A DNA stretch of 31,949 nucleotides, from the IMG/VR virus record IMGVR_UViG_3300009418_004309, positions 1-31,949 of that record; one strand, 5' to 3'. This document shows positions 9,501-31,381 of this stretch, piece by piece. A program made the position numbers and the translations under genes. Source of the stretch: a virus. The notes below the pieces were generated by a model, which was given only the letters and a program-made list of their open reading frames with translations, searched no databases and was not told where the DNA came from. Numbering within the stretch: position 1 is the stretch's first letter; every line of letters begins with the position of its first letter.

Positions 9501-10784
9501 TGCCCATATGTGTACAAGCCCATCAGGAGCAGGTGAACTAGCTCTACCAATGAGAAGATCAGCAGTAGCAGCAAATTCCCACTTAACATCGGTCCCATTG
9601 GAAGAAAGATCGGCCTCTACACCAGCAGTCCCTAATCTAATAGAAACATTGTCATTGAATATGGCATCACCGCTGGCAAACGTGGCAGTTGGTACAGCAG
9701 CGGCTGAAGAACTAATCTCCAACATGTCAGTTAAAGTATTGTTCACCATAACCTGCCAGGTGAACTTAGAATCTTTCGTATTGCTGGTTACATCATTGAT
9801 CTGCCATATCTGGCGACCAACTTCCACCATATTTCCAGCCGAATCTTCCATCTCATAAGTGATGTAAGAACTATCGTTATCTGCAGCCGTGCCTCTATTA
9901 GACCCCCTAAAAACTGCTACCTGATTAGAAGCAGCATTAAAAGAATTCTGAACCATAAGAGCAGGGACAGTAGCAGATTCAGAAACCACTACCTCTAACC
10001 CAGCAGAAGGAGTAGCCGTATTCACACCAACCCTGGCAGCACTCGTGTCCACATAGAGTTGACTTGTGTTTACCCTAAGATCACCCGCACCACCCAGAGT
10101 AAGATCTAAATGAGCACCCGATACTGGGGCAATAGTTAATGCACCAGCACTGGTTGTAAGACTCGTAGCCTTTTTGAACTGCAAAGTAGCGTCGGTATAA
10201 GCAAACTGTTGAGAAGCAGATACATAAAGATTTAAAGCATTATCAGAATGGGTGTAGGTGATACGGCCTATATCCGCATCAGCCACATCTCCGAATAGAA
10301 TTCCGCTAGAGGTTGGAGCTAAGAGGCTGATAAAAGCATTATCATCATTCTCAGCAGTTATGATTGTATCTGTTACTGCTGTGACACTTCCTGCGGTAGC
10401 ACCAAAAACATGGAGCCTACTGTCAGGAGTAGAGTCATGGGCACCACCTATACTCATATGCTTGGTGGCCCCGTCAAGGAACATCATCACATTGGCAGTG
10501 CTGTTGGCGGTGTGCATAAACCGCACATCCTGATTGGATCCCTGAGCAACCAGTGTGATTGGAGTTCCAGAGGAGGACTGGAGTGTCGAATACTCAGCCG
10601 CTCCAGCAGCAGATGAGATTAATCCATCATTCGCTACTTGGAAAACAACCGCATCATTCTCATCAGTGCATTTTAAATAGGCACCGCTTCCGCTCTGAAC
10701 GACCTCTATTCCAGGCTCAGAATCACTAACGATATATTGCCGCTTTAGCGGATAAAATGATATTTGTCTCAGATCAACAGGCAT
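3588..10784 (-). CDS. 2398-residue repeat-containing tail/fibre-like protein
   Basis: A very large Gly/Thr/Ala/Asp-rich protein beginning MPVDLRQISFYPLKR, with a GGGGGG-type ribosome binding site upstream of ATG 10784. Two related modules of about 100 residues near the N-terminus (SRLHVFGATAGSV and LVHIWAATAGSV types) are followed by six copies of a module centred on NIQITADGTVDIDSAGVLTL. Around 6350-6560 a segment with VADPLVALATTNTGNAVDIG and GFVWDANVSKYILF resembles a domain I know from marine myovirus tail proteins. The last 90 residues change character: FYDDYNDPVLVRDLDLAI, then an alpha-helical, probably coiled-coil end (LYEKMERLEEENKSLKENL) that could drive trimerisation. I see no S74-type autoproteolytic chaperone motif. 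It is most likely a virion fibre or tail protein. The attachment point and the ligand are unknown. Confidence 0.85.
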   Translation of the reverse strand: MPVDLRQISFYPLKRQYIVSDSEPGIEVVQSGSGAYLKCTDENDAVVFQVANDGLISSAAGAAEYSTLQSSSGTPITLVAQGSNQDVRFMHTANSTANVMMFLDGATKHMSIGGAHDSTPDSRLHVFGATAGSVTAVTDTIITAENDDNAFISLLAPTSSGILFGDVADADIGRITYTHSDNALNLYVSASQQFAYTDATLQFKKATSLTTSAGALTIAPVSGAHLDLTLGGAGDLRVNTSQLYVDTSAARVGVNTATPSAGLEVVVSESATVPALMVQNSFNAASNQVAVFRGSNRGTAADNDSSYITYEMEDSAGNMVEVGRQIWQINDVTSNTKDSKFTWQVMVNNTLTDMLEISSSAAAVPTATFASGDAIFNDNVSIRLGTAGVEADLSSNGTDVKWEFAATADLLIGRASSPAPDGLVHIWAATAGSVQAPTDSLLTLEKDDNAYITFLAPTVSGINFGDAADNNVGSITYTHSSNTLNTTINAASQLNHTDGAFAFAKATTVSTSSGTLTINAFTAGGAINFASQAMTSVDINSGTIGGVTIDGTSTATADVTFNDNVKVTLGTGGDVDVYYDATDMVINTRVAGTGDLVTHSQIVWGTGVAVTAADYSIGRDADGTNQMHLNVPSSSGWEFSINDTAKLTYATGAFNFTEATSITTSAGQLTIDGAGGVVINEDGDDEDFRIETNSNANTLVIDANTFGGTGSIGLGNAVVNTAYLRIAPIAITSTADQPYAAVRIAPVGVTVPSGTSSVVSSLTVVEPVISATGTVTVAATVYIQNAPTEGTNDYALFVDAGATRLDGTLTASGGGALTGTWSDLGTVSTIDINGGSIDGITLGTNAAVTQAVIDDIDLNGKVITMTGSSSDTAVFTAGTNGTLSIVTTDAAAAAANIQITADGTVDIDSAGVLTLDSGAAINLEPAAGSAILLDGTISIDGGAVTGVVSIFQTDVKIGEDDETKIDFETVNTINFYVNNAKDLVLSENALTPGTSDGTALGTTSLMWSDLFLASGSVVNFNNGDVTLTHSANTLTLAGGTLAAAAITGTTIDASTDFTIGSTVITDDVITFTPSSSDTVTLTSSTNGAFSLVTVDDAAAAANIQITADGTVDIDSAGVLTLDSGAAINLEPAGGSAILLDGTISVDAGVVTGATSITSTAFLGTLDGVVGGNTPAAITGTAIIGTTIDATTDFTIGSLVITDDSIVMTPTASDTVTIAGAANGAFSIVTVDAGAAAANIQITADGTVDIDSAGVLTLDSGAAINLEPAAGSAILLDGTISVDAGVVTNATSITSTDFVGNITGTVLTATQNSITTMTGLVTTGALNAGSITSGFTSIDVGSGAITTTGTVTTGALAINGNITTAAARTWTLLDNDATALSFDASGKTGMLVFDTRNGSERVTLSGNVLVSGDFEVAGSSTTVSTTVIVADPLVALATTNTGNAVDIGFFGRYRTNGTNLYTGFVWDANVSKYILFHGNQAAPDTTVNTGGTGYTASTLVLGTLESSNIAAHTLTGKLTAGSVEIEGSGFDINGGDMTGVTISGALTWSAAQDLNNQALTNINVDSGAIDGVTLGTNSAITNAVIDDVAINGKVITMTGSASDTATMTAATNGAFSLVTVDAAAAAANIQITADGTVDIDSAGALTLDSGAAINLEPASGSVILLDGTISVDAGVVTGVTAFTSATIDATTDFTIGSLIITDDQIQMTPTASDTITIAGAANGAFSIVTVDDAAAAANIQITADGTVDIDSAGVLTLDSGAAINIEPAGGSAILLDGTISIDAGVVTGATSITSTAFLGTLDGVIGGNTPAAITGTTIDATTDFTIGSTVITDDVITFTPSSSDTVTMTSSTNGAFSLVTVDNAAAAANIQITADGTVDIDSAGVLTLDSGAAINIEPAGGSAILLDGTISIDAGVVIGATSITSTNFVGTVTTATQNSITTMTGLVTTGALNSGSIASGFGAIDIGSDNLTATGTISLGATSFNDQNLTNVGGIALDTITSDAGAGITITPTTDTFFSNGTGVVIGHTAQLTVSAADGATPRQPEFQIAGTVGTIDGAALITTFNTNGAGIGNASTLNFAKSRGSFGTVGTAVGVTDSLGTIVAYGDDGTDMYSPAAAIHFEVDGTVGTGVMPGKIAFYTTPASSEALAERVRIDALGRVFIGDTTIGTSVDMDTAGLVINQAGGDKHILALKSSDVGHGMTTVAETDTYGFIEKSDTMGGLRIEGLKASGGTHSGLSMRGVIDGTQNSTKGTAGTGTITLDTAIRNGTGVTAVGANGNIFSIRNNGATRFIFDAEGDFYSDASINADFYDDYNDPVLVRDLDLAITQRFDQWTQYNRADVERAKLVHFDEKDQPFVNWTRVWKLHNGAIWQLYEKMERLEEENKSLKENLSKMLTEG
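5041..8150 (-). repeat. Six protein-level repeats with scrambled codons inside the giant fibre gene
   Basis: Copies lie at about 7945-8150, 7320-7530, 6900-7110, 5760-5960, 5401-5620 and 5041-5240. Each encodes NGAFS[IL]VTVD, then NIQITADGTVDIDSAGVLTL, DSGAAIN[LI]EPA, GS[AV]ILLDGTIS[VI]D. The 27 residues from NIQIT to GAAIN are identical between the last two copies (5041-5240 and 5401-5620), yet 21 of the 27 codons differ, all synonymously. The repeats are therefore conserved as protein and not as DNA. Confidence 0.9.
9225..10430 (-). repeat. Duplicated ~100-residue module in the N-terminal part of the giant fibre
   Basis: Two copies, at about 10130-10430 and 9225-9530, encode related segments: H-[VI]-[FW]-x-ATAGSV, then ENDDNAFISLLAPTSSGILF versus EKDDNAYITFLAPTVSGINF, then FGD-x-AD, ITYTHS and a closing TSAGALTI or TSSGTLTI. 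They differ at many residues, so this duplication is older or less constrained than the six-copy array downstream. They probably form repeated beta domains of the fibre shaft. Confidence 0.75.
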
Positions 10785-18311: not shown

Positions 18312-21300
18312 TTAGATACTAACACCCTGAATATTAAGGTTCGAATCGTACTCAACTTGAACACCCTCATAGCAATCTGGGCATACTTGTGCGTCCGGCA
18401 TTTGAAGAATGTCTGTTATGTAAGAATTTTGATTCATAGGCTGAACACAAAGGGTGACTTCATACATTTCCATATCTGTAACCTCGGTCCAGCATTTACC
18501 ATGGTCACACTTCAACTCTTTATCTTTAGCATTACCCGCAATACTGAATCCCCGTAAAGTGCCTTTCATTATCTCTCTCATAGCCTTACGAGCAACTTCA
18601 AGATCATTTCTAATGGCAGCCACAACAAACATTCCCTCAGGTCTTACTTCAGTTTTCCATAATTTACCGTGCTCATCAGTGAATTCTGGAAGAATCTGAC
18701 CTACCTGTATCCCAGAATGGAAAATATTCACATTGGCATATTCTGGACGCTTTAAAAATTCCTCTAAAGCTCGCCTCATTCCCTCTATACCAATTCTGTG
18801 GCCCTCTTGATCTATGACGTAATAATTCCCCCACCCAGCAACAACCAGAGTATTCTTGGTGTCCATGAAATCAGTCTGTTTCTCGATACCATCGGGAACC
18901 AGGACTTTCATAAGACCCACATCTATATTACTAGGATCGTCTCCACTCTTTGCCAGCATGGGAGAAAGCAAAGTCGCTACAACACCCGAAACAGCGTCGC
19001 CTAGCTGGTTCTCAGGTGTAAGACGAGTATCATAGGATAAATTCGTATATTGCTCCGCAGCCATATCATTAGTACGAATCCTATGAGAATCTTCGTCTAT
19101 GAATTTTCTTCGGACAATTTCGTTCTCGGCCCTCTCTTCAAGCTCTGCGGGCTTGTAAGTATCCTCATTCTCAGCAATAACTAAATTACTGACATCATCC
19201 CCTATAGGCTCCTGCCCAGGAGGAAACGGTTCATTACGAACACCCCTACCGTCCATCCTTCTTCTAGACTCTGAATCCCCCGGCCTATGCCTATCTATTG
19301 AATTAGATTTTTTAGGATCTTTGGTCTGTCCAAGCTCAGGCACGTCTGGGGCTGGTAGCTGAGATAGCCCCTCCGTAGTGCCGTAAACATCAGCATTTTT
19401 CTCCAAACTGCTATCTACAGTTTCAGCTACATTCTCAAATATAGTTTCTACTTCAGACTCTTTTTCTTCTTCTTTGTCAGAATCAGATTTAGTTACTTCG
19501 GCTGATTTGGGCTTCAAAGAACTGTCATAAGCAGTAGAAGTCCCCCCACCACCATATGTAGCAGTGTGAGTTCCACCAGAGGTCATAGCAGTTCCACTAC
19601 CGCCATCCCCACCAAAACTGCCACCTCCCCCACCATCACCTCCACCTTCTTTTAACTCAACCAACCTAGATTCAAAAGTATTTACTTTGGATAATCTATC
19701 ATGATGGTGATCATCATATGATCCAACAGTATCTTTTCTAACAAGTGGATCTTTCTTTCTAAGGGATCTCAATCTTGAATCGAACTCCGAAGCCTTCTCG
19801 GCCTCATCAATATTCATAGAGGCATCTGGAGTTGGAATCATATCTATGCTCCCATCTCCACCCCCCTCAACACCCTCAGATCCAGAACCCTGTACGGCAT
19901 GCGGTTGAACACCTATCTCAGCATCCATAGATTCAGGTAAATCTACTACTGCTCCAGAACTAAAAGCTTGAGTACCGGTCCCAGCCTCTGCACTGGAAAG
20001 AGCTTCCTCACTGGCAGGAGATAATTTGTCTTTTTTGCGTTGAGCAGAAATCGGATCCTGCATATCTTCCGGCCTGTCTACCGTGAAAGGATATGCTTTC
20101 TGCTGAACATCAAGTTTCCTAGAATCAGTCAAATGATGATATATATCGCTCATATAGGAGCCTGTACGAGAAATCTTATCGAGAACCCAAAAATCTATTT
20201 CTTCATTGTCACCTAAAATATCTATAAGTCTTTTAGAGTACTCATTAACCTTTACAAGTGTTCTTTTAGCCCCTATTCCCTCATCTTCACCCTTCTCAAT
20301 ACGCTCACTTAGCCGCTCCTGAGGAATACCTCTAGGTTGCATGCGACTATCATTTATTGTTTCTGGGTGACCGGGATCCCAACCTTGGGTATCGAATTTC
20401 TCGACATACTCACTATCGGTCTCCGTCTCCCACACAGGAGATTCCTTATTTACTGGCTGTCTAAGGCCCATATATGACTGTCTAAGACCCATATATGACT
20501 GTCGAGAACCGTCCCGACTCTTATGTAGATAGGGGTTATTCTCCTCCTCAACATGCTCCCTTCCGGGATCCAGATCTTCATCCTCACCCTCAGGTATTGG
20601 ATTATTGTCTGGGTACTTAAAAACACCCTCAGACTCCTCATGGTGTTTAAGTCCGACTTGGTTACGAAGATGTTTCAGATTGTCCCCTATCTCTCTAGCT
20701 TGGACACCTCCACGAACCCCATCTTGAACAACTGAGCCACGAACCCCAGGAGGAACATAATTATCGCCCACCGACTGAAATGGATCACCTAAATCAGTTA
20801 TATCTCGTTGTTTGTAAATATCATTGCTAACATTGGTGGACAGATAAAGCCTATCCTCAGGATCATCCATAGAGGTAGTGATCATGTCCTTTAATTCATC
20901 GATATTGTAATCAGGGGCCAATGGCACATTCGCCAAACTTCCTACGGAGACCCATGTGAGTGAATCATATTTATCAGGAAGAACTATCTGACCAGACACC
21001 GATACCGCAAATATCATCCCACTTACATGGCCCTCACCCATACTGACAGAGCCAAGTTGTTTTGCCTGTCGTGCTTTTAAGTTTAATAGGGCAATCTGAC
21101 GCTTCAATGCATCTCTAAGAGATTCGTCCTCCTTCTTTAATCCGCCGGGAAGTTCCCAATAAGGAGCACCAGTGCGCTTCACAAAGAGAAGCTCTTCAAA
21201 AGAATTTTTAATGAAGAAGAACACTCCCTGGTATTCAGAAGTGTTCTCAAGCTCCTGACGCATAATAAGATTGGGTTTGCTGGCAGCCTCATCAAAATTG

Positions 21301-21962
21301 GCTGGACTCTCTAAATCTTTTGCTTCCTCAGAACGATCATCCTCAGTGTAAATAAGATTGTCAGAAACAGATTTATCTACACCCCCCACTTTAGGAGCCT
21401 TACTTTTTGGCTTGGTCTCATCTGGATCCGAAGCTTCCACATTCGTAGCAGCATCCACTACTGTACCCGCAACCTGGCCCACTGCCCCTAAAGCCGCTCC
21501 GATAACGGCAGGTATAAGCTTCTCTACACGCTCTCCCTTGATTATCTCCTCTGTAGCATCGGGAGAAAAGAATATATCGTGCCATTCATTATCAATAGAT
21601 TTGAAAGTAAGTTTACTCAAAGACCGGGCCAAATCCGTGTGGCCCAGTTGAGAAAGAGCCTCTTTCACATGCTGGTTTCGAGCCTCTAAAATTTCTCTCA
21701 GAGTAGCAAAATCTGGATCAGCACCGTTCTGGTCATCCTCATGAACCTGAGCTATCTGAGAATAAAACTGGGAAGCGGCCTTCGCTCCGTCAGGTCCAGC
21801 ATAGAGAACAGCACCGTTCCGGCGCACAAAAAAAGAATCCTCACCATCTTCAGTCTTCACAGAAAGATCGATGGTGTAATTATTGTCCTGAAAGAACCCA
21901 AGCTCTGAGACAATCACAGATTCAATCATCTCATCAACATGTTTAAGTAGCTCTTGTGTCAT
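18312..21962 (-). CDS. Prohead protease fused to a degenerate Nudix-like domain
   Basis: 1216 residues from ATG 21962, chosen because GAGGAG lies a few bases upstream. A TTG at 22004 would add 14 residues and is less likely. Positions here count from the TTG. The C-terminal 200 residues look like an HK97/assemblin-type capsid maturation protease: H1096 in IFHSGIQVG, S1154 in GTLRGFSIAG and E1182 in MEMYEVTLC are candidate active-site residues. Cysteine pairs (CDHGKC and CPDC) may bind metal. Residues 257-370 resemble a Nudix fold (YWELPGG, then a helix), but the box reads R-Q-I-A-L-L instead of R-E-U-x-E-E, so hydrolysis is unlikely. A hydrophobic helix lies at about 163-190. Between the domains is a long charged, Gly-rich disordered region. 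The usual family length is about 150-250 residues, so this is exceptionally long and may be cut into several products. Confidence 0.75.
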   Translation of the reverse strand: MTQELLKHVDEMIESVIVSELGFFQDNNYTIDLSVKTEDGEDSFFVRRNGAVLYAGPDGAKAASQFYSQIAQVHEDDQNGADPDFATLREILEARNQHVKEALSQLGHTDLARSLSKLTFKSIDNEWHDIFFSPDATEEIIKGERVEKLIPAVIGAALGAVGQVAGTVVDAATNVEASDPDETKPKSKAPKVGGVDKSVSDNLIYTEDDRSEEAKDLESPANFDEAASKPNLIMRQELENTSEYQGVFFFIKNSFEELLFVKRTGAPYWELPGGLKKEDESLRDALKRQIALLNLKARQAKQLGSVSMGEGHVSGMIFAVSVSGQIVLPDKYDSLTWVSVGSLANVPLAPDYNIDELKDMITTSMDDPEDRLYLSTNVSNDIYKQRDITDLGDPFQSVGDNYVPPGVRGSVVQDGVRGGVQAREIGDNLKHLRNQVGLKHHEESEGVFKYPDNNPIPEGEDEDLDPGREHVEEENNPYLHKSRDGSRQSYMGLRQSYMGLRQPVNKESPVWETETDSEYVEKFDTQGWDPGHPETINDSRMQPRGIPQERLSERIEKGEDEGIGAKRTLVKVNEYSKRLIDILGDNEEIDFWVLDKISRTGSYMSDIYHHLTDSRKLDVQQKAYPFTVDRPEDMQDPISAQRKKDKLSPASEEALSSAEAGTGTQAFSSGAVVDLPESMDAEIGVQPHAVQGSGSEGVEGGGDGSIDMIPTPDASMNIDEAEKASEFDSRLRSLRKKDPLVRKDTVGSYDDHHHDRLSKVNTFESRLVELKEGGGDGGGGGSFGGDGGSGTAMTSGGTHTATYGGGGTSTAYDSSLKPKSAEVTKSDSDKEEEKESEVETIFENVAETVDSSLEKNADVYGTTEGLSQLPAPDVPELGQTKDPKKSNSIDRHRPGDSESRRRMDGRGVRNEPFPPGQEPIGDDVSNLVIAENEDTYKPAELEERAENEIVRRKFIDEDSHRIRTNDMAAEQYTNLSYDTRLTPENQLGDAVSGVVATLLSPMLAKSGDDPSNIDVGLMKVLVPDGIEKQTDFMDTKNTLVVAGWGNYYVIDQEGHRIGIEGMRRALEEFLKRPEYANVNIFHSGIQVGQILPEFTDEHGKLWKTEVRPEGMFVVAAIRNDLEVARKAMREIMKGTLRGFSIAGNAKDKELKCDHGKCWTEVTDMEMYEVTLCVQPMNQNSYITDILQMPDAQVCPDCYEGVQVEYDSNLNIQGVSI
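20457..20498 (-). repeat. 21-base tandem repeat in the protease linker
   Basis: Two 21-base units (20457-20477 and 20478-20498) differ at one base and encode a SYMGLRQ heptapeptide twice; a partial third unit follows. The repeat keeps the reading frame and lies in the disordered linker, consistent with recent slippage or unequal recombination. Confidence 0.8.
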
Positions 21963-22000
21963 ATGCTCCTCACTTCGATCACGTCGAAGCGAAACTACGC

Positions 22001-22978
22001 TCAAGTCTTGTGTACAGGATCTTCATGGTTTGGGCAGTCACATTCATCTTCAAAATTCTTGCCGTCATGACTGCAATGCTTAACAGACGCAGAGCCGCCC
22101 GAAGTGTTGCCCCCGCCCTCCATAAACTCCTTGTCGAACCCTTCTCCGTCATTAGACATACCCAGACCGTCAATAGCCTGACCACCAGCCGCCCCTATAT
22201 TCTCATCTATTTCGGTATCGTGAGATACCCCACGTCCAGATGCCCTCGGCGTGCCCCCAGTGTCATTCAATCCCTTCATAAAATTCTCAGGATTGAAATT
22301 ATCAGGCTCGTAATACATAAAAGCTGCAAAAAATGCAGGTTCTTCCATGCCCTCTATACTCTTTGCAAACGTAACACATTCATTCCACCACTCACTGGAA
22401 GGTCGGCTACCTCTATCTGTAAGCATCTTATAAACGAGGGTTCCCTCAACTATGTCCTCAGTTTTAGTGCACTCACATAAATCGAATGATTTCAAAATAT
22501 CTACATCCGATGTATGAGGAGAATAATCTGAAGATTTCTCTATTACCTTGTCTACATCAGCCCATAATTGAAAAAGATCTACACCACGATCCATACCCCC
22601 CAATACAGCTTTTCGAATTTCCCTACGACGTAACATAGGCTCAGCTATTGACCCATCGTCAACAAGTCCCTCCTCGCCCTTGTCCTCTTTACGCCCCATC
22701 TCTGGAGGAAGATTGGTCTTGTCTCCTAGATCAGTAGCGACTTCAAGTGAATCTGTTTCAGATGTAGCAGATTCTGAAGATTCATCATCTTTTTGCTTGT
22801 CCATTGCCCCATTATCAGCATCTTCAAGTACAGAGCCAACATCAACATCCCCATTTGAATCTGGGATAGGTTCTTCCCCCAGAACATCATTCTTCTGTAT
22901 CAAAGACCCAAGCATTAGGTCTAATCCCTGAAGAAATGTCCTATCAATTGTACCATCCGGCTTTTTCTGACCAGTCAT
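22001..22978 (-). CDS. Acidic protein of unknown function upstream of the protease
   Basis: 325 residues, ATG 22978 with GGAGA upstream. Residues 30-115 are acidic and probably disordered. A small globular segment follows (RKAVLGGMDRGVDLFQLWAD, then SEWWNECVTFAKSIEGMEEP and AFFAAFMYYEPDNF). The W-x-x-CV ... DP/EP-x-F-x-A pattern resembles a short helical motif found in many phage structural and head-assembly proteins, but I cannot name the family with confidence. The C-terminus is Gly-rich and ends with a Cys/His cluster (KHCSHDG, CDCPNH) that could bind zinc. Its stop overlaps the alternative TTG start of the protease gene. Its place in the head block suggests an assembly or internal head protein. 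Confidence 0.6.
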   Translation of the reverse strand: MTGQKKPDGTIDRTFLQGLDLMLGSLIQKNDVLGEEPIPDSNGDVDVGSVLEDADNGAMDKQKDDESSESATSETDSLEVATDLGDKTNLPPEMGRKEDKGEEGLVDDGSIAEPMLRRREIRKAVLGGMDRGVDLFQLWADVDKVIEKSSDYSPHTSDVDILKSFDLCECTKTEDIVEGTLVYKMLTDRGSRPSSEWWNECVTFAKSIEGMEEPAFFAAFMYYEPDNFNPENFMKGLNDTGGTPRASGRGVSHDTEIDENIGAAGGQAIDGLGMSNDGEGFDKEFMEGGGNTSGGSASVKHCSHDGKNFEDECDCPNHEDPVHKT

Positions 22979-23297: not shown

Positions 23298-24890
23298 CTA
23301 TCCGTACCGCTCTAAATAGCTGGTTATTTCCTTTATACTATCATCTTCATGGCCCCATGTACGACTCTTACTCTTATCGTAGCCGTCCCTGTCGGGTATG
23401 TAAGCAGGAGTACCTGGGCCAGACCCACCTGTGCCCAGGTGAGCAACAGCAGTGTTGGCGGATGATGTGGTGCCTGAATCATGTATATTCAGGTTGGACT
23501 CAGTCCACGGCAGTAAACCTGCTGCTGATGCAGCAGTATCTACGAAATTACCTGCGATATCAATCCCACTGCCCACCCCAGCAGACGCTAGGTCATAAAC
23601 CTTACCCGCCGCATCGGTGACAGTATTATAGGCACCCGAAACAAGATCTTTTCCACCACTAACCACATCACCACCAACATCGACAACATTACCTGGGAAA
23701 TTCGTGAACCAGTTGCCGCCGTCGTCTTCATGTTCTCCAGGGACAACGGAGTCGGTTTGATCATTATCAATGGTTCCTGAGGAACCACCCATATTACCAC
23801 TAGAACCAGACGAACCGGGACCTCTATGATCTATGGCAACATTATCGGGATCGGTAACTCCTATAGCTACTGTATCTATAGGATCTACACTCCCCACAGT
23901 GTTGTCTGTTATTGGTATAAGTGGCTCTAAATTCGGGTCATAGCTCTGATCAGCATCCCCATAATCGGGTGTAGGATCTGCATTGCTAACAGGAGGGAGG
24001 GGGTCAGTTGTCTGACTAGGAAAATCATATGTCCATTCGGTATCAGCATCCTCATAACTAGAAGTGTCTACAGGGATAGGTGAAGGCTGGGAAGTAATGG
24101 GTGATCCCCCACCATAATTAGGGAAATCTCCGTGAATATCTGCCTCAGGGTCATCATCCCATTGTCCAGACGAATAGGTATCGACTGGGTCAACCGATGA
24201 TGACCCTGCGGCAGGGGCTACATACCCCCCCAACCATTCTTCTTGACTATCATAAGGTTCATAAGCCGCCACATCCGAATCCAGGTCACTAGTCGGAGAA
24301 GGTTCTACGGTAGGGGGAATGGGTATATTTGACTCATATTCGGATGCATAAGCATCTGCATCCTCATAACTAGAAGTGTCCACAGTGGATACTGGGGCTA
24401 CATAAGGCGTAAGTGTCTCCTCCGCAATATCAGCATCATAATACTCCTCCGTCGTTTGAACAGGTTGTGATGTTACCTTCGGGGTTGAAACGGCTCCTGC
24501 GGAGTACCCACCCTCCCGCTCCTGGGTTATCCACTCTGGGGCGGCTGCAAAATCCTCCTCATTTCCACCGCCGTAGAAGTCCATGCTATAGCTCTGGCTG
24601 ACTGGGGCAGGAGTTTTCCCGCTGCTCCAGTCCTTACCTACGGCTTCTGGCATTTCAACGTCGGCTGGAAGCTCTGGGGACTCCACTGGAGTGTCACTAG
24701 GGGAGGCTACTTGTTTAGTTTCCTTAACATCGGGAGTGGTAGTAACCCATCTGCCCGCATCACCCATGTCACCATCTACAAAATCCTCATCGCCCCACCC
24801 ATATTTTAAAAAATACCCATCTATAGCCCCTATGATAGAGACTTCTAATTCTGAAACAGTGGTACGGGGTCTCCTACTGTTCCGACTCAT
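23298..24890 (-). CDS. Large acidic disordered protein with amphipathic C-terminal helices
   Basis: 530 residues, ATG 24890, overlapping the upstream gene by 17 bases. Apart from the first 35 residues (VSELEVSIIGAIDGYFLKYG) the protein is dominated by Pro, Ser, Asp, Tyr, Thr and Gly with little hydrophobic core, so it should be intrinsically disordered. VDTSSYEDAD occurs twice. At about residues 395-460 the character changes to gently hydrophobic repeats (VVDVGGDVVSGGKDLVSGAY, NTVTDAAGKVYDLASAGVGS) that could form apolipoprotein-like amphipathic helices touching membrane or DNA. The last residues (IKEITSYLERYG) form a helix. It could be an internal head or ejected protein. No family is recognised. 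Confidence 0.6.
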   Translation of the reverse strand: MSRNSRRPRTTVSELEVSIIGAIDGYFLKYGWGDEDFVDGDMGDAGRWVTTTPDVKETKQVASPSDTPVESPELPADVEMPEAVGKDWSSGKTPAPVSQSYSMDFYGGGNEEDFAAAPEWITQEREGGYSAGAVSTPKVTSQPVQTTEEYYDADIAEETLTPYVAPVSTVDTSSYEDADAYASEYESNIPIPPTVEPSPTSDLDSDVAAYEPYDSQEEWLGGYVAPAAGSSSVDPVDTYSSGQWDDDPEADIHGDFPNYGGGSPITSQPSPIPVDTSSYEDADTEWTYDFPSQTTDPLPPVSNADPTPDYGDADQSYDPNLEPLIPITDNTVGSVDPIDTVAIGVTDPDNVAIDHRGPGSSGSSGNMGGSSGTIDNDQTDSVVPGEHEDDGGNWFTNFPGNVVDVGGDVVSGGKDLVSGAYNTVTDAAGKVYDLASAGVGSGIDIAGNFVDTAASAAGLLPWTESNLNIHDSGTTSSANTAVAHLGTGGSGPGTPAYIPDRDGYDKSKSRTWGHEDDSIKEITSYLERYG

Positions 24891-25506
24891 AATGCCCCAT
24901 TACCGTAATAAGATGCCCAGTAGAAAAGGAAAAATCGGTAGATAGATCTTCTCCTATGAGACTACTTACCTCTCCAGAATGAAAATGGGCGGCTTGCATG
25001 AGGTTTACCATATTTTCTATATCATCCAGAGAAGCAGACTTGCTTGATACTGCCTTTTTCTCTACGCCCAAAAAATCATCAGTCGCCTTAGCCGCAAATA
25101 CAATGGAGTCTTTCGTCTTCGAATTGACACTACCCTCTAACTTCCTGAAAACATTTACAGCATTAGGACAAATATCAAAATTCTTAGAGGTAAACCCGGC
25201 AATAGAGGATTGAGAACCCTCTTTCAAGTAAAAATCTATAGTCTTAACGAGAATATTTAAACTGGCAGATTTATCTAAGGTACTCAAAGATTCAGTAGCT
25301 TTAGGCAACGAAGGGACGTGGCTTGGTTCTCCCTCCCTGGAAGGAGACGACTGAAGGGATTTGCTGGCGAAATCTTCCAGTTCGTCCTCAGTCATACTTT
25401 CATACATACCTTTAGAAGACCCACGAAGGCTTTTAACAGAACCACCCCGTTTTGCTCCTAAAGCCGCACCAGCAGCCCTTCTCTGGGACTCAGATTCGGC
25501 TGGCAC
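24874..25506 (-). CDS. Protein with a DUF3008-like N-terminal motif
   Basis: 210 residues, starting with GTG 25506 after GAGGTAAATATA. The N-terminus MPAESESQRRAAGAALGAKR, followed by a spacer and SMTEDELEDFASK, has the layout of the small phage family DUF3008 (MPAxSxxQ[RQ]... then MSxxxLxDFAxxK). That family is normally only 50-80 residues long; here it is joined to a 150-residue, mostly helical extension with Ser/Lys-rich linkers (LDDIENMVNLMQAAHFHSGE). DUF3008 proteins are typically encoded near head and tail genes, but their function is not established. The final residues overlap the next gene's start. Confidence 0.62.
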   Translation of the reverse strand: MPAESESQRRAAGAALGAKRGGSVKSLRGSSKGMYESMTEDELEDFASKSLQSSPSREGEPSHVPSLPKATESLSTLDKSASLNILVKTIDFYLKEGSQSSIAGFTSKNFDICPNAVNVFRKLEGSVNSKTKDSIVFAAKATDDFLGVEKKAVSSKSASLDDIENMVNLMQAAHFHSGEVSSLIGEDLSTDFSFSTGHLITVMGHYESEQ

Positions 25507-27357: not shown

Positions 27358-27975
27358 TTAATAACTAACTCCCACCCCGGGTGCTCTTTCATCAATCTCT
27401 TCTACCATTAACTCCAATAATTTGATGCGTTGTGTATATGAATCAGATGGGACAGACTTGACAACAGATTTTAGATCGTCAAGACGCTCCAACATTTTCT
27501 TATACCTCTTTGTATATCCACGAGTATTATCAGAATCGGCCTTAGCCTCTGCAAGCTCCTCTACCTTATTCTCAACCTCTAGAAACAGAGACTCTATAAG
27601 CCTTTGATACAAACCAACGAGAAGGACTGATTTATTGTCTTCAATATTTGCCCTTATCACCATGAGGCTCTCATCTATGCCACTAACAGCTTTATAGGCC
27701 AGTCGGCTATACGGCATAAAGTAAACACTCTGAGAATGCATTGCCAAACCGACCTTACGGAACTGCCTATGTAAGGCTACTCGTCTAGTAAACTCCTCAC
27801 TAGGTAAATCAAAAAAGACGAATACCCATTTGGCTGGAATAGTCTCAGAGGTGGGCGTACTGACAAAAGATATCCCAGACCACGTATCAACCGCTGAAGC
27901 AGACGTTTCCTTGGGATGCAGCTTCTGAGTCTTCGAACGTGAATGCTCTATGTTTTTGTCATTAAAAGTATTCAT
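27358..27975 (-). CDS. ChrB-N/PaaX/Cas2-like ferredoxin-fold protein
   Basis: 205 residues, ATG 27975 with AGG upstream. After a polar 45-residue leader comes KWVFVFFDLPSEEFTRRVAL (from residue 49), then HRQFRKVGLAMHSQSVYFMP. This 'W-x-[FL]-x-x-x-[FY]-DLP ... R ... L-x-x-G ... x-x-SVY-x-x-P' layout is shared by the ChrB N-terminal domain, the PaaX C-terminal domain and, more distantly, Cas2 and VapD. The C-terminal half is a helical pair (LYQRLIESLFLEVENKVEEL, YTKRYKKMLERLDDLKSVVK), which matches the ChrB-N domain better than Cas2. There is no Cas1 and no repeat array in the window. The acidic residue in DLP is the one that would bind metal in the nucleases of this fold. A nucleic-acid-related role is plausible. 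Function unproven. Confidence 0.55.
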   Translation of the reverse strand: MNTFNDKNIEHSRSKTQKLHPKETSASAVDTWSGISFVSTPTSETIPAKWVFVFFDLPSEEFTRRVALHRQFRKVGLAMHSQSVYFMPYSRLAYKAVSGIDESLMVIRANIEDNKSVLLVGLYQRLIESLFLEVENKVEELAEAKADSDNTRGYTKRYKKMLERLDDLKSVVKSVPSDSYTQRIKLLELMVEEIDERAPGVGVSY

Positions 27976-27977
27976 AA

Positions 27978-28172
27978 CTAGCCTGTGTAGACTACCTGAC
28001 CTTCCTTTGTATGTTTGTGCGGGCGATGTCCGACCTTATCCTTAACAGCTATACCCTTTAGGTACTTATCCGCCTCTTTCTCAGCAGTAGCCCCAGGAGG
28101 GAACCCCTCAAGCTCCGCCGTTATTTCAGTACCAGAAGCTGAGAATGTCAAAATCAATTTCTTATTTGCCAT
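27978..28172 (-). CDS. DUF2997-like small protein
   Basis: 64 residues, ATG overlapping the stop of the DUF1257-like gene (TAATG at 28172). The N-terminal part KKLILTFSASGTEITAELEG plus GFPPGATAEKEADKYL has the pattern of DUF2997: two short strands, a 'G-[FY]-x-G' turn and a helix. The usual conserved Cys after this turn is absent, replaced by small residues. In bacterial genomes DUF2997 genes commonly neighbour DUF1257 genes, which fits the arrangement here. Biochemical function is unknown. Confidence 0.55.
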   Translation of the reverse strand: MANKKLILTFSASGTEITAELEGFPPGATAEKEADKYLKGIAVKDKVGHRPHKHTKEGQVVYTG

Positions 28173-28480
28173 TATGCAATCTCCAATGCTATATCACCAT
28201 TAGCCTTGACCAACCTCTTAGTGCGTTGACCCTTCTTTCTTGCGTCCTTTTCGGCCTTACGGAGTTTATGCTCCTGCAAAAACTTACCGCATAAAGTTCT
28301 ATCTCCAACAAGCTCATACCCGCCACCCGATTGATTAAGAGTTACACGACCACCATCTATCTCAATAACCGATCCTAGTGTGGACACTTGGTAACCAAGA
28401 GACCTGACAGCATCCAAAAATGAAACGTAATCAGAATCCTTAATAGTTGTGTAAGTTCGATATGTTATGTAGCACGGCAT
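28172..28480 (-). CDS. DUF1257/Ycf35-like protein
   Basis: 102 residues, ATG 28480 with AGGAAG upstream, the first gene behind an almost ideal sigma70 promoter. The layout matches DUF1257/Ycf35: an opening strand (YITYRTYTTIKD), a helix with ALRSLGY-like text (FLDAVRSLGYQVSTLG), a strand and G-G-G-Y-E-L-V (NQSGGGYELVGD), a helical stretch (FLQEHKLRKAEKDARKKGQR) and a closing strand (VKANGDIALEIA). It is slightly shorter than typical members. Ycf35 proteins are conserved in cyanobacteria and some plastids without a settled function. Here the gene is coupled to a DUF2997-like gene and lies near a Ycf46-type ATPase. Confidence 0.62.
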   Translation of the reverse strand: MPCYITYRTYTTIKDSDYVSFLDAVRSLGYQVSTLGSVIEIDGGRVTLNQSGGGYELVGDRTLCGKFLQEHKLRKAEKDARKKGQRTKRLVKANGDIALEIA

Positions 28481-28507
28481 TTTCTAAACTTCCTTTTCTT
28501 TGTTCCC

Positions 28508-28536
28508 ATTATATAGGAAATATCTATACAAGTCAA
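28508..28536 (-). promoter_or_regulatory. Near-consensus sigma70 promoter for the DUF1257-like unit
   Basis: TTGACT (28531-28536) and TATAAT (28508-28513) on the minus strand with a 17-base spacer. The -35 is embedded in GTGCTTGAC and lies only about 18 bases after the stop of the SWIM protein gene, so it is an added internal promoter and not the head of a separate region. Confidence 0.85.
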
Positions 28537-28553
28537 GCACTTCAATTTTTTTA

Positions 28554-28811
28554 TTAATCTATGAGAATCCTACGGATGAACATTCCCTCGTTTCTCTTTG
28601 GCTCTTTCGGCTTCTGGAGGGCCACCATAACGCTCTGTCCCTCAATAGCTACATCGAATAGCTCTCGTAGGTGCTTGCACTCTTTGATCGGTGGCCTACT
28701 GAACTGCCAAGCCTTGCATGTGCAATAGATTCGATAATCCTTACCAAGAACTATGTTATATGTACCGTTGCCGTTCTGACTTTGAATTTCTTGTATAGCC
28801 TTTCCCATCAT
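28554..28811 (-). CDS. SWIM-type zinc-finger protein
   Basis: 85 residues, ATG 28811 after AAGGGAG. Residues 18-50 read YNIVLGKDYRIYCTCKAWQF, then SRPPIKECKHL. C30, C32, C45 and H47 give the CxC-x(n)-CxH signature of SWIM zinc fingers, and the preceding strand and the K-A-W-Q-F text are also typical. SWIM domains bind nucleic acids or proteins and often accompany helicases and transposases. This one stands alone. Its C-terminus, MFIRRILID, is nearly the same as that of the adjacent upstream protein, an unusual sharing discussed in the findings. It lies ten bases after the DUF3150-like gene and is probably transcribed with it. Confidence 0.72.
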   Translation of the reverse strand: MMGKAIQEIQSQNGNGTYNIVLGKDYRIYCTCKAWQFSRPPIKECKHLRELFDVAIEGQSVMVALQKPKEPKRNEGMFIRRILID

Positions 28812-28821
28812 GTCTCCCTTT

Positions 28822-29673
28822 TTAATCTATTAAAATCCTTCTAACAAACAGAGGATTTACATCCACAGCAGCATCCTTCAACTCTTTGGCATATTCCTTC
28901 ATGCCCTCAGGAGGAGACACTGACAATGCTAAGATTGCTCTCTTAAGATCAGGATCTTCCAACAGATCCATTGCAGATACTCTATCTCTCAGACCCTGGA
29001 CGGGACGCATATTACGACCATCTATCTTACCGCCGTTCGCATCCGCCTCTATTATTCTATCGGCTATCTGACGTGCTTCAGCCCTAAGAGTGTTCATTGA
29101 ATTTACGGCCCAAGACAGATACATATCCTCTGCCGTGCCATCGGCCCCCATAACACTCCCAATGTTCGCAGCATAGTAGATTGTCTCAAACTTGAACTTA
29201 CTCCGAACAAAATCAACATCTGGATAGTGCATAGCCAGAGAACCTGCATGTTGAGGATACGCTTCCAGATACTCGTTTCGATGATCTTCATACCTACTTA
29301 TGAACTTATCAACATGCTCAAAAAAAGTCGTTCGTTCTTTCTCTATGGCCTCTTTCAGCAGATCAAAATTCTCGAATGGTATGAAAGAGGTGCCACCTAT
29401 GAAAAATGGAAACCCATAGCGATCAGCAGCATTACGTGCCCTGCCAATCGTATTCAGAAAGTCGTGCTTGACCTTGCTGGGAAGTAGTCGCTTTGATCCA
29501 AGCCTCACAAAATCTGGAAGCTCTTCTCCCCGCATATTTAAGTCTCCAGGATCAAGGCGGGCTTCCATGGACCAAATGCCGCCCTGTATGCGGCAAAGAA
29601 TTCCCTTATTCCATATACCCCCAAGCTCCCTTGATTCGCCCGTACCGTTAACCGAAACCGATGTTAAAACCAT
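28822..29673 (-). CDS. DUF3150-like protein
   Basis: 283 residues, ATG 29673 with a GGAAGGG-type site. The region GSKRLLPSKVKHDFLNTIGR, RARNAADRYGFPFFIGGTSF, IPFENFDLLKEAIEKERTTF, F-x-x-x-V-x-x-FISRYED follows the DUF3150 layout: a Lys/Arg-rich 'G-K-x-L' start, a helix with A-R-x-x-x-x-x-Y, a 'F-x-GG-x-x-F/x-VP' turn and long helices with F and Y. DUF3150 is found in phages and mobile elements, frequently close to AAA+ ATPases, and has no known activity. The next gene upstream here is a Ycf46-type ATPase. The C-terminal peptide LFVRRILID matches the end of the downstream SWIM protein. Confidence 0.65.
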   Translation of the reverse strand: MVLTSVSVNGTGESRELGGIWNKGILCRIQGGIWSMEARLDPGDLNMRGEELPDFVRLGSKRLLPSKVKHDFLNTIGRARNAADRYGFPFFIGGTSFIPFENFDLLKEAIEKERTTFFEHVDKFISRYEDHRNEYLEAYPQHAGSLAMHYPDVDFVRSKFKFETIYYAANIGSVMGADGTAEDMYLSWAVNSMNTLRAEARQIADRIIEADANGGKIDGRNMRPVQGLRDRVSAMDLLEDPDLKRAILALSVSPPEGMKEYAKELKDAAVDVNPLFVRRILID

Positions 29674-29704
29674 TCCTAATCCCTTCCTTTTCTTTATTTC
29701 CTAT

Positions 29705-29733
29705 ATTTTACCTTAATTTAGATAATACGTCAA
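29705..29733 (-). promoter_or_regulatory. Sigma70-like promoter for the DUF3150-like gene
   Basis: TTGACG (29728-29733) and TAAAAT (29705-29710) on the minus strand with a 17-base spacer. The -35 lies in GTGCTTGAC and only ten bases after the stop of the ATPase gene. No terminator separates the two, so read-through from the ATPase promoter should also reach this gene. Confidence 0.8.
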
Positions 29734-29743
29734 GCACATCATC

Positions 29744-31315
29744 CTAGTTCAAACTCACCCTACGGCTTGCCATAAGATTCATTTTATCTATATTGATGTT
29801 GTCCAAACGTACTGGCTCTCCTTCTTGAGCCTCTTTGCACCTGCCGAATGCCCATGTCCGAGAAGATTCTATTTCCTCACGGTTTAACCTAGCCTGAGGC
29901 ACTATGGCTGATGCAGCTACCTCTAAATGATTGCCTTTTAAAATAGGGCTATCTGGATCGTCTGCAAATGCATCAACTAGAGCAGCATCCACGACCTTCT
30001 CAATCTCGGCCCCGGAAAAACCCTGCATAAGACTAACTACTTTACCCACACTGGACTTAGAGGGCATTTCCTTGCCACGCTTTGTCAGATGAATCTCTAA
30101 GATTTCTTCTCTGTTGGCCTGTGTAGGGAGGTCGGCCCAGAAGACTTCATCGAACCGCCTGAGAAGTGGAGCAGGAAGCCCCTGTATGCTGTTAGCAGTA
30201 GCCACTATATAAATCAGCTTGTCCTTGGAGCGTTCTTCCATCCAGGTAATCATCTGTCCGTAAACACGCTTGCTTACGCCAGAGTCCTGTTCTCCGCCAC
30301 CACTTGCACCTGCCATTGCCTTTTCAATCTCATCCACCCACAACACTGCAGGGGCAAGACTCTCTATCTGATTAAATACCATCCTCATGCGCTCTTCGCT
30401 TGAGCCTACAAACTTACTGAAGACCTTGCTCATATCGAACTTGATCAAAGGTAAACCGAATTCCTGGGCAATACATTTTGCCGTAAGGCTCTTGCCTGTT
30501 CCTGGAGGGCCAAGAAGAAAAACTCCCTTGGGGTTAGCTATTCCAAAATCTTTTGACCGTGGGTCAAATATTACATTCTTACGCCTAATCAGCCACTCTT
30601 TGAGGAGTTGCAGACCACCCACAGAAGACATATCTCCATCAAAGGGAGTGTACTCCAATACACCAGAACTCTCTAAAATCTTAGCCTTCTCGGACATAAT
30701 GATTTTAGGATCAACAGATGTCTTTGTCTTTATCATCGATAAGGCTAGTGCGTTCTCAACCTCATTCTCAGTCATACCTCCAGCATTGGCTATGACACGC
30801 CTCTTATCATCATCGGACTCCCACCCTGAGAACAATCCCTGTTCTACCCATTCATTAGTTACCACATCCACTATCTCTTCAATCTGAACAGGAGTGGGAA
30901 GTTCGTAAGGAACAGACAGGAAAAGCCGCTCAAACTCCGGGGCAACTTTGTATATGGGAGACAGAACTATCACGGTGCGAGGACGAATCCCCTTCCATCG
31001 TGCATAGCCATCAATGAAATTCTGTACTGTAGGCATATCGGGATTCTCACCGATAAACCCATGAAAGTTGTACAGCAAGCACACACTGTTGTCGTCAAAC
31101 TTGTCTATCCAGTCGAAAACTTCAGCGGGATCGTCACCAGACCCCGTGCCGTCCCAACCAGTGGTTACCTTCCACTCATGGAAAGGATACCCTTCCCCAT
31201 TCAACGACTTGCATATTGTCTCAATGCTGTAAGCCGCACGGGGCAATTCTAGAGCAGTCACATAGATTAAAGGCTGACCCGCCTTTATGTACGATTTCAG
31301 ATCTTCTGCAAACAT
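29744..31315 (-). CDS. Ycf46-type AAA+ ATPase
   Basis: 523 residues, ATG 31315 with AAGGAG upstream. The first 220 residues (DLKSYIKAGQPLIYVTALEL, then RPRTVIVLSP and VPYELPTPVQIEEI) match the N-terminal domain of Ycf46. The ATPase part has Walker A GPPGTGKS (269-276), Walker B VLWVDEIE (324-331), sensor-1 VATAN (N375) and an RRFDEVFW arginine-finger segment (386-393). The family hallmark 'SG[TV]-S-[NK]-R-V-[FY]-G-x-x-[IL]-TW' appears as SGVSKRVYGQMITWMEERSK. A C-terminal helical lid follows (GFSGAEIEKVVDAALVDAF). Length is close to the family norm. Catalytic residues look intact, so it should be an active remodelling ATPase. Its clients are unknown. It has its own promoter and heads the cassette. 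Confidence 0.8.
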   Translation of the reverse strand: MFAEDLKSYIKAGQPLIYVTALELPRAAYSIETICKSLNGEGYPFHEWKVTTGWDGTGSGDDPAEVFDWIDKFDDNSVCLLYNFHGFIGENPDMPTVQNFIDGYARWKGIRPRTVIVLSPIYKVAPEFERLFLSVPYELPTPVQIEEIVDVVTNEWVEQGLFSGWESDDDKRRVIANAGGMTENEVENALALSMIKTKTSVDPKIIMSEKAKILESSGVLEYTPFDGDMSSVGGLQLLKEWLIRRKNVIFDPRSKDFGIANPKGVFLLGPPGTGKSLTAKCIAQEFGLPLIKFDMSKVFSKFVGSSEERMRMVFNQIESLAPAVLWVDEIEKAMAGASGGGEQDSGVSKRVYGQMITWMEERSKDKLIYIVATANSIQGLPAPLLRRFDEVFWADLPTQANREEILEIHLTKRGKEMPSKSSVGKVVSLMQGFSGAEIEKVVDAALVDAFADDPDSPILKGNHLEVAASAIVPQARLNREEIESSRTWAFGRCKEAQEGEPVRLDNINIDKMNLMASRRVSLN

Positions 31316-31352: not shown

Positions 31353-31381
31353 AGTATACCATAAGACAGAAGGGATGTAAA
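31353..31381 (-). promoter_or_regulatory. Sigma70-like promoter for the AAA+ ATPase gene
   Basis: TTTACA (31376-31381) and TATACT (31353-31358) on the minus strand with a 17-base spacer, 37 bases before the start codon. The -35 context is GTGCTTTAC, shared with the two promoters downstream. The hexamers equal those of the promoter at 26364-26392. Confidence 0.8.

Follow-up and report, generated by a model that had tools for sequence, protein, structure and literature searches.

Several described systems bear on the locus treated here, a five-gene cassette at positions 27978-31315 of the IMG/VR virus record IMGVR_UViG_3300009418_004309, whose whole analysed stretch (31,949 nucleotides, positions 1 to 31,949 of the record) we refer to as the window. 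In phage T4, the proteins gp43, gp55 and gp33 carry short, interchangeable C-terminal epitopes that bind the ring-shaped clamp, and the epitope of gp55 follows a divergent linker (PMC2988020). Small heat-shock proteins (sHsps) possess an R-x-I-x-I-like C-terminal peptide that binds a groove in trans, with the IxI motifs occupying the beta4/beta8 cleft, and the C-peptide of the reconstructed bacterial sHsp ancestor is PEAMKPPRIEIN (PMC10708888). Cyanobacteria and plastids encode Ycf46, Ycf35 (DUF1257) and DUF2997 proteins, the same families as those of the cassette, and DUF2997-ycf35-fed7 is a listed gene cluster in Synechocystis (PMC4284462). Finally, the Cdc48/p97 and Rix7 unfoldases have an overall double-domain architecture like that modelled for the cassette ATPase, and conjugative plasmids and islands carry cassettes of a MoxR-type AAA+ ATPase, a DUF3150 protein and a VWA protein (L187-L193; L numbers denote loci that we read), so that DUF3150 and an AAA+ ATPase occur together on mobile DNA there as here.

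The cassette resembles T4 in that different phage proteins share a C-terminal epitope. The T4 tails are hydrophobic/acidic and their hub is the clamp (PMC2988020), whereas the cassette tails read R-x-h-x-h (h, hydrophobic) and the tagged set includes an AAA+ ATPase. Chromosomal ATPases of this type, in L009, L011, L012, L015 and L017, reach only to a W..R-A/C/T box or barely beyond it and have no tail, and none of the eight chromosomal loci read contains the strict motif defined below. Reading the open reading frames (ORFs) of the window confirmed the five genes of the preliminary description, a model's reading of the sequence: the interval holds exactly five, all on the minus strand, transcribed in the order ATPase, DUF3150, SWIM, DUF1257-like and DUF2997-like, and they recur in diverged viruses. 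The genes and their tails (lengths in amino acids, aa) are as follows.

29744..31315, minus strand: Ycf46-type AAA+ ATPase, 523 aa (Pfam AAA, PHROG, alignment, structure model)
29747..29767, minus strand: C-terminal tail of the ATPase, SRRVSLN (read from DNA)
28822..29673, minus strand: DUF3150 protein, 283 aa (Pfam E 1.2e-19)
28825..28848, minus strand: C-terminal tail of the DUF3150 protein, FVRRILID (read from DNA)
28554..28811, minus strand: SWIM-type zinc-finger protein, 85 aa (zinc ligands; Pfam below cut-off)
28671..28724, minus strand: zinc-ligand segment of the SWIM protein, CTC...CKH (read from sequence and alignment)
28557..28580, minus strand: C-terminal tail of the SWIM protein, FIRRILID (read from DNA)
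28172..28480, minus strand: divergent DUF1257 (Ycf35-like) protein, 102 aa, without tail (model and profile comparison)
27978..28172, minus strand: divergent DUF2997-like protein, 64 aa, without tail (profile comparison)

The most striking feature, absent from the preliminary description, is that three non-homologous proteins of the window (the ATPase, the DUF3150 protein and the SWIM protein) end alike. We expressed the tail as a strict motif, R.[ILVFM].[LIVFM].{0,2} at the C-terminus, with the last hydrophobic residue 0-2 residues from the end. It is present in 11/11 SWIM proteins (six of them window-type), 17/28 DUF3150 proteins and 28/61 ATPases, and was found in 0/39 DUF1257 and 0/32 DUF2997 proteins (SWIM and DUF3150 together 28/39 vs 0/71 for DUF1257 and DUF2997, p 1.5e-17). 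A relaxed pattern that accepts R or K matches 11/11 SWIM, 18/28 DUF3150, 34/61 ATPase and 0/32 DUF2997 proteins. These family counts leave out same-contig copies (L001, L002, L008, L167, L168, L179-L182 and the window, represented by L183, L089, L090 and L184), as well as L187 and the opposite-strand SWIM matches of L095 and L135, two proteins that lack a tail. By position, the strict motif ends 27/212 genes within 4 kb downstream of the ATPase vs 7/422 of the remaining genes in these loci (p 2e-8), namely 4/251 genes farther away on the same strand, 2/101 on the opposite strand and 1/70 upstream; it matches 361/31,280 internal positions. For GC-rich contigs, genes were called with a simple codon-usage script, so that starts may err, and the tails depend on stop codons only.

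Among viral ATPases, the strict motif occurs in 25/50 non-redundant sequences and in 73/112 when 59 fresh loci, described below, are added to the 53 of the first set (50 after redundancy filtering). The residue between the two hydrophobics of these 73 tails is D in 56, N in 6 and E in 5 (67/73), and in the window's own tails it is S or L. The tail follows a linker of variable length, with the end lying 15-26 residues past a conserved box in the 48 cases measured. Across eight window-type contigs the tail pattern occurs at 25 sites, compared with 13 for a reversed control, and 17/25 are cassette tails, which disfavors a phage-wide tag. We regard the shared C-terminal tag as real with near certainty.

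The tails also vary together. In the six window-type cassettes that encode all three proteins, the ends (ATPase / DUF3150 / SWIM) are:

Window: SRRVSLN / VRRILID / IRRILID
L089: SRSINLN / VRAILLD / LRAILLD
L178: SRSINLN / VRAILLD / IRAILLD
L184: IRSINLN / IRAVLLD / VRAVLLD
L177: VRAINLN / VRAVVLD / IRAVVLN
L090: IRGVNLN / VRAVVLD / VRAVVLN

Compared with shuffled pairings, tails from the same locus are more similar for ATPase-DUF3150 (n=18, p 0.0005; n=13, p 0.005 with one window-type representative), DUF3150-SWIM (n=10, p 0.00025) and ATPase-SWIM (n=10, p 0.005). Amino-acid composition as the source of this in-step variation was ruled out by internal segments of the same shape, which have no within-locus excess (6.07 within and 6.38 between loci, compared with 9.46 and 6.60 for the tails). 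In the six window-type DUF3150-SWIM pairs, codons differ at 20/34 identical tail residues; thus, the equal tails are not a recent DNA copy.

We then turned to a fresh sample of two new scans (78 loci, of which 77 have the ATPase and 59 remained after similar ones were removed), from which contigs of the first set were excluded by hand. Here the strict motif is present in 45/59 ATPases, 2/2 DUF3150 proteins and 1/1 SWIM protein, and in 0/7 DUF1257 and 0/6 DUF2997 proteins. For example, in L326 a SWIM protein with the end KRRVLDL neighbors an ATPase with the end RRVLDI, and in L214 a DUF3150 protein with KRKVVLD neighbors an ATPase with NRKVTLN. At the 45/59 fresh loci with an adjacent ORF that fits a size and distance rule, a looser core close to the C-terminus, h-[DEN]-h, is present in 28/45 of these partners vs 10/502 other ORFs (p 5e-27). 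A stronger argument than this partner count is the variety of proteins, picked by eye, that carry the tail. Other partner kinds were seen in 5/8 plasmid loci (L170, L172-L175), including an HhH membrane protein (PGRRLEF, with ATPase GGRTFEF), a 414-aa protein (KRKVILD, with GRKVSV) and a 186-aa protein (GRRILL, with RRAVLLG), and the Streptococcus satellite phage Javan368 (L007) encodes a 573-aa protein ending NRKIKI with an ATPase ending TRKVLV. A 570/573-aa protein near the ATPase is common to Javan368 and a Komagataeibacter plasmid (L173; alike by eye). The stretch L105:7935-15658 encodes five tail-bearing proteins, namely the ATPase, a 227-aa protein, the DUF3150 protein, the SWIM protein and a 176-aa protein, and the 227- and 176-aa proteins have no Pfam match.

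A number of observations weigh against reading the tail as a common tag of one machine. The motif was defined after the first loci had been viewed, and the family and position counts are therefore not blind. It is missing from 33/61 ATPases, from 39/112 viral ATPases (L099 and L102 among them, and likewise those of L003, L004, L005, L094, L118 and L130) and from 11/28 DUF3150 proteins; in L004, L005 and L094 a neighboring 212-230-aa protein has a tail-like end instead of the ATPase. The relaxed pattern also matches 3/39 DUF1257 proteins. The similarity test took only pairs with readable tails on both sides (18/24 ATPase-DUF3150 pairs and 10/11 with SWIM), and with one window-type representative neither DUF3150-SWIM (n=5, p 0.11) nor ATPase-SWIM (n=5, p 0.09) is significant. 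Among the fresh ATPases from the diverged scan only 5/12 have the strict motif; the other fresh carriers, 40/47 ATPases of the second scan, are relatives of the mycobacteriophage Corndog type linked by descent, so neither the fresh ATPase counts nor the 28/45 partners are independent events. The looser core has low specificity: it occurs at 6.9% of internal partner positions, the R is kept in only 11/28 partner tails (and in 1 of the 10 other ORFs), and the window's own tails lack it. In phage Smooch (123 of its 125 annotated features were read as proteins, without a joined gene and a cut one), six proteins end in strict h-[DEN]-h, that is, five besides the ATPase, which is the sole one of the six with a preceding R; ten further proteins match loosely, the partner gp97 among them. 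In the monomer model the ATPase tail lies outside any sheet at low confidence, and the last residues of the DUF3150 protein are modelled as a low-confidence helix, not a strand; that the ATPase model gives no hint of cis docking speaks neither for nor against the reading. Lastly, no partner for the tail was found.

With these points taken into account, we still consider that the tail is probably a docking tag for a common hub. The variable linker, the low-confidence model tails, the strong end motif and the several unrelated carriers together suggest a docking peptide at the end of a flexible tether. It may form a short edge beta-strand and would bind the hub in trans. The carriers would be the ATPase, DUF3150 and SWIM proteins, and the hub either the DUF1257/DUF2997 proteins or the ATPase itself; that it lies within the cassette is a possibility we hold to somewhat tentatively. 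The DUF1257 and DUF2997 proteins are candidates because they lack the tag and recur with the ATPase. In Javan368 and the Komagataeibacter plasmid the tails are present and no DUF1257 or DUF2997 gene was found in the stretches read, which would favor the ATPase itself. Under this reading, a Cdc48/Rix7-like double-domain ring would be brought together with DUF3150, as a helical partner, and with SWIM. Whether the whole cassette is one ATP-driven remodelling machine, its parts gathered by the shared C-terminal address tag, seems to us evenly balanced. T4 provides a precedent for a machine of several proteins brought together through terminal epitopes that they share.

The T4 example also raises the question of whether the tails are sliding-clamp binding motifs, with the phage or host beta clamp as the hub and the cassette working at the replisome. 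The L-D-L core of many tails does resemble the core of the bacterial QL[SD]LF clamp motif, the Smooch clamp gene lies about 6 kb from the ATPase, and clamp-loader genes follow the cassette in L089, L178 and L185. We nevertheless judge this unlikely: an end of the form Q-h-[SD]-[LM] occurs in only 3/112 ATPase tails, the window-type tails RRILID, RAVVLD and RSINLN do not fit the motif, the Smooch primase/polymerase has no such tail, and L129 is the sole further locus where a Smooch-type clamp turned up, in a single-sequence search that would miss divergent clamps. Alternatively, the tails could be C-terminal degrons or unfolding tags, through which parts are turned over or remodelled by host ClpX or by the pore of the cassette ATPase. 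Unfoldases classically recognize unstructured C-terminal tails with basic and hydrophobic residues, as ClpX does in MuA; in the cassette, the tail is carried by partners of an AAA+ ring, and the modelled tails have low confidence. The ATPase itself often bears the tail, which would be odd for a degron, and the in-step changes inside each cassette are easier to reconcile with a receptor of its own than with host ClpX. We consider this explanation quite improbable.

A docking of alpha-crystallin-type IxI tails onto a host or phage small heat-shock protein, linking the ring to a chaperone, appears less probable again. The sHsp ancestor C-peptide given above is close to RSINLN and RRILID, and L185 encodes an Hsp20 protein inside its window-type cassette (L185:2484-2942; Pfam 1.5e-19) that ends in KQITIN, much like the cassette tails. 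Yet Hsp20 was noticed in only 1/7 window-type contigs (the others being inspected by eye, or with Pfam for ten window proteins, with no search using an Hsp20 model); Pfam gave no alpha-crystallin match among the ten window proteins. D-core tails such as RALDL depart from IxI, and the likeness may stem from nothing more than a general mode of beta-strand addition. It could also be argued that no functional link exists and that similar tails are inherited or arose by chance in genes that merely travel together: a tail could be inherited within a family, the strict motif is absent from many members, and a single lineage makes up much of the fresh sample. Against this, the tail is common to different families, changes in step, uses different codons, has no internal counterpart in excess and appears again on fresh contigs, and we thus give the coincidence very little credence.

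The docking-tag reading involves an ATPase that is well placed as a AAA+ protein (PF00004, E 3.7e-30, 105.5 bits vs a cut-off of 21.2; PHROG 8638, E 5e-109). The preliminary description had reported an intact Walker A, Walker B, sensor 1 and arginine finger, and all are present and nearly fully conserved: Walker A GPPGTGKS (residue 269), DEIEK (328), TAN (373) and RRFD (386), with G274, K275, D328, E329, N375 and R387 invariant and R386 nearly so in an alignment of 50 sequences. The segment DSGVSKRVYGQMITW is present at residue 344. Neither the Pfam nor the NCBIfam listings for the ATPase include a Ycf46-specific model, and we use “Ycf46-type” as a label only. The Walker A is single; a degenerate N-terminal AAA-like domain (about residues 1-215) without Walker A precedes the intact AAA domain. 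The monomer model (pLDDT 92.4; 58 and 59 in the last two blocks, which hold the tail) has a double-AAA architecture, and its best PDB matches are Cdc48 and Rix7 (E about 1e-24), from which the ATPase differs in its first domain and in sequence (16-21% identity in the listed matches). Residues 2-496 are 32% identical (best segment) to a Prochlorococcus ATPase whose record gives no protein name. Relatives, including more distant AAA proteins, were found in 148/50,697 phage records (E<=1e-5) and 1,196/72,556 plasmid records (E<=1e-15). At L136:2018-5707 the ATPase reads as two separate pieces whose ends look intein-like by eye; close by is an ORF resembling a transposase (TnpB by eye).

The family names in the preliminary description had been assigned by eye, and profile searches upheld them unevenly. 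Pfam places the ATPase and also the DUF3150 protein (PF11348, 71.1 bits vs a cut-off of 24.9, E 1.2e-19), whereas the SWIM protein falls below the cut-off (PF04434, E 0.019, 15.0 bits vs 19.6) and is assigned because its zinc ligands are conserved (CxC..CxH; C30, C32, C45 and H47 invariant in three aligned sequences). This zinc finger likely binds nucleic acid or protein. The DUF3150 model (pLDDT 83.5) had no PDB match at E<=0.001 with Foldseek; VIA-align gave its best scores with talin R10 (Z 8.1, 99 aligned, 3.2 A) and Cas2 4es2 (Z 7.6, 77 aligned, 3.5 A), both in the range of common arrangements, and on the model these matches are generic helical or ferredoxin-like arrangements, nothing more. 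A search of the phage collection with the window DUF3150 protein gave no match, and DUF3150 was found in 4/299 genomes sampled.

The two proteins without a tail are divergent. Pfam did not match the window proteins to DUF1257 (PF06868, up to E 1) or to DUF2997 (PF11211), and their placement comes from profile comparison and, for DUF1257, also from a model search. With window-type members excluded, a 12-sequence DUF1257 model recovered the ORF of the window (E 1.8e-4; 15,739 ORFs searched) but missed the equivalent ORFs of L089, L090, L177, L178, L184 and L185; window-type and DUF1257 profiles match at 94.8%, E 5e-8, and the DUF1257 members of L003 and L004 pass Pfam. The DUF2997 assignment is weaker and tentative (87.9%, E 3e-6): the gene adjoins the DUF1257-like gene, but its product lacks a cysteine that all 18 DUF2997 sequences compared have. 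Few of the sampled chromosomes encode DUF1257, with 0/398 genomes in one phylum and 3/398 in another, numbers too low to supply fresh chromosomal loci, as were those for DUF3150. Searches with the L095 DUF1257 protein gave no match in phages, and those with the L004 protein gave one plasmid record.

The preliminary description had also proposed a mobile unit, and this is supported. An identical ATPase and DUF3150 protein are found on two larger contigs (95 kb and 105 kb), and diverged window-type cassettes in L089, L090, L177, L178, L184 and L185 (with no SWIM gene seen in L185). An extra ORF of 137-146 aa lies between DUF3150 and SWIM in L089 (10557-10970) and L178 (5680-6120), the L089 copy having no Pfam match. 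The five genes are not together only here, since the neighborhood survey found all five families within about 4-7 kb in L095, L099, L102, L105 and L135, although the gene order varies. Its recurrence in diverged viruses makes the arrangement more than a chance one. Rhizobium phage RHph_I4 and Pseudomonas phage SM1 encode the ATPase, DUF1257 and DUF2997 above Pfam cut-offs. The unit also occurs outside viruses, with partial relatives on plasmids: ATPase, DUF1257 and DUF2997 occur in 6/8 loci (L170, L171, L172, L174, L175 and L176, by annotation or model). A 4Fe-4S (radical-SAM activase-like) gene lies near the cassette in 5/8 plasmid loci, and the copy examined further, that of L175, is NrdG-like.

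Neighboring genes offer some indication of function. DnaB and DNA polymerase I are encoded near the cassette at one phage locus and DnaB at another, a sliding clamp, Ku and ParB near that of Smooch, and the clamp loader of L089, L178 and L185 lies shortly after it; where DUF3150 stands beside MoxR-type ATPases, the neighbors are Ssb, Bet/RecT and exonuclease genes. By guilt by association, these genes favor replication or recombination work over host takeover or counter-defense. The suggestion that the cassette acts on host transcription, translation or membranes found no support, nor did counter-defense or a defense-system reading: PADLOC, given the ATPase, DUF3150 and SWIM proteins, returned AAA-core matches only for the first (IetA, TRIP13, mad8) and none for the other two. 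Judged from the neighbors alone, a role in remodelling DNA replication or recombination complexes is plausible, and we put it forward with some reserve.

The MoxR cassettes differ from ours in their MoxR-type ATPase, in the presence of VWA and Ssb/Bet/Exo genes and in a tail that is acidic-aromatic or hydrophobic (e.g., SFYF). In 6/7 of these loci (L187-L192, not L193; by eye) DUF3150 and the neighboring lambda-type exonuclease share this different tail, which we take to resemble the C-terminal tail of SSB. In four loci a 176-302-aa protein also shares it, and the tails vary in step (SFYF/SFYF/NYYF, NDLYF/SSWW/DLFF, EDGFF/ESFYI/EDAFF and GDYFF/TFYW/DHFF; pairs GIMLF/ALLLF and TIMVF/YVVF).

Further features in and around the cassette are listed below.

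31353..31381, minus strand: weaker promoter-like site TTTACA-17-TATACT, before the ATPase gene (motif scan)
29705..29733, minus strand: sigma-70-like promoter TTGACG-17-TAAAAT, before DUF3150-SWIM (motif scan)
28508..28536, minus strand: sigma-70-like promoter TTGACT-17-TATAAT, before DUF1257-DUF2997 (motif scan)
27358..27975, minus strand: neighbor with a PaaX_M/Cas2-like domain, adjoining the DUF2997-like gene, without tail (Pfam PaaX_M 1.3e-5)

The sites before DUF3150 and before DUF1257-DUF2997 both recur at matching positions in L089, L178 and L184 and not in L177; across the whole region sigma-70-like sites are at chance level (14 vs 11.1 in shuffles). Separate promoters would allow different amounts of carriers (DUF3150-SWIM) and supposed readers (DUF1257-DUF2997). 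The PaaX_M/Cas2-like neighbor matches PADLOC Cas2 models at 2e-4 to 9e-3 and has relatives in L178 and L090; the DUF3150 model is likewise weakly Cas2-like (Z 7.6, as above). Elsewhere on the minus strand of the window we noted a 1230-aa ORF (18312-22004) whose first third weakly matches NUDIX and whose end weakly matches a prohead protease, two giant ORFs (3-10784; at least 1195 aa and 2398 aa) with almost no family match, the second containing DUF3540, and a 210-aa protein (24874-25506) with a DUF3008 domain at its start (7.4e-18).

The protein families of the cassette are known by name, and the open literature searched, which leaves out most subscription journals, holds little or no functional work on Ycf46, Ycf35/DUF1257, DUF2997 and DUF3150. 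We found there no paper treating DUF3150, or Ycf46 with DUF1257, in agreement with the preliminary description of the cassette as undescribed, and none with the gene grouping, the tail or the in-step variation, which is weak evidence of absence. A bolder and doubtful extension is that mobile elements use a private, co-evolving C-terminal addressing code for a Ycf46-type ring and varying clients such as DUF3150, SWIM and HhH membrane proteins, read by DUF1257/DUF2997 or by the ring, with the MoxR-DUF3150 plasmid cassettes having a second, unrelated code. If so, any protein could join the machine by gaining six residues. The shared tag itself provides a concrete handle on how these little-studied families belong together and a sequence rule for finding further parts.

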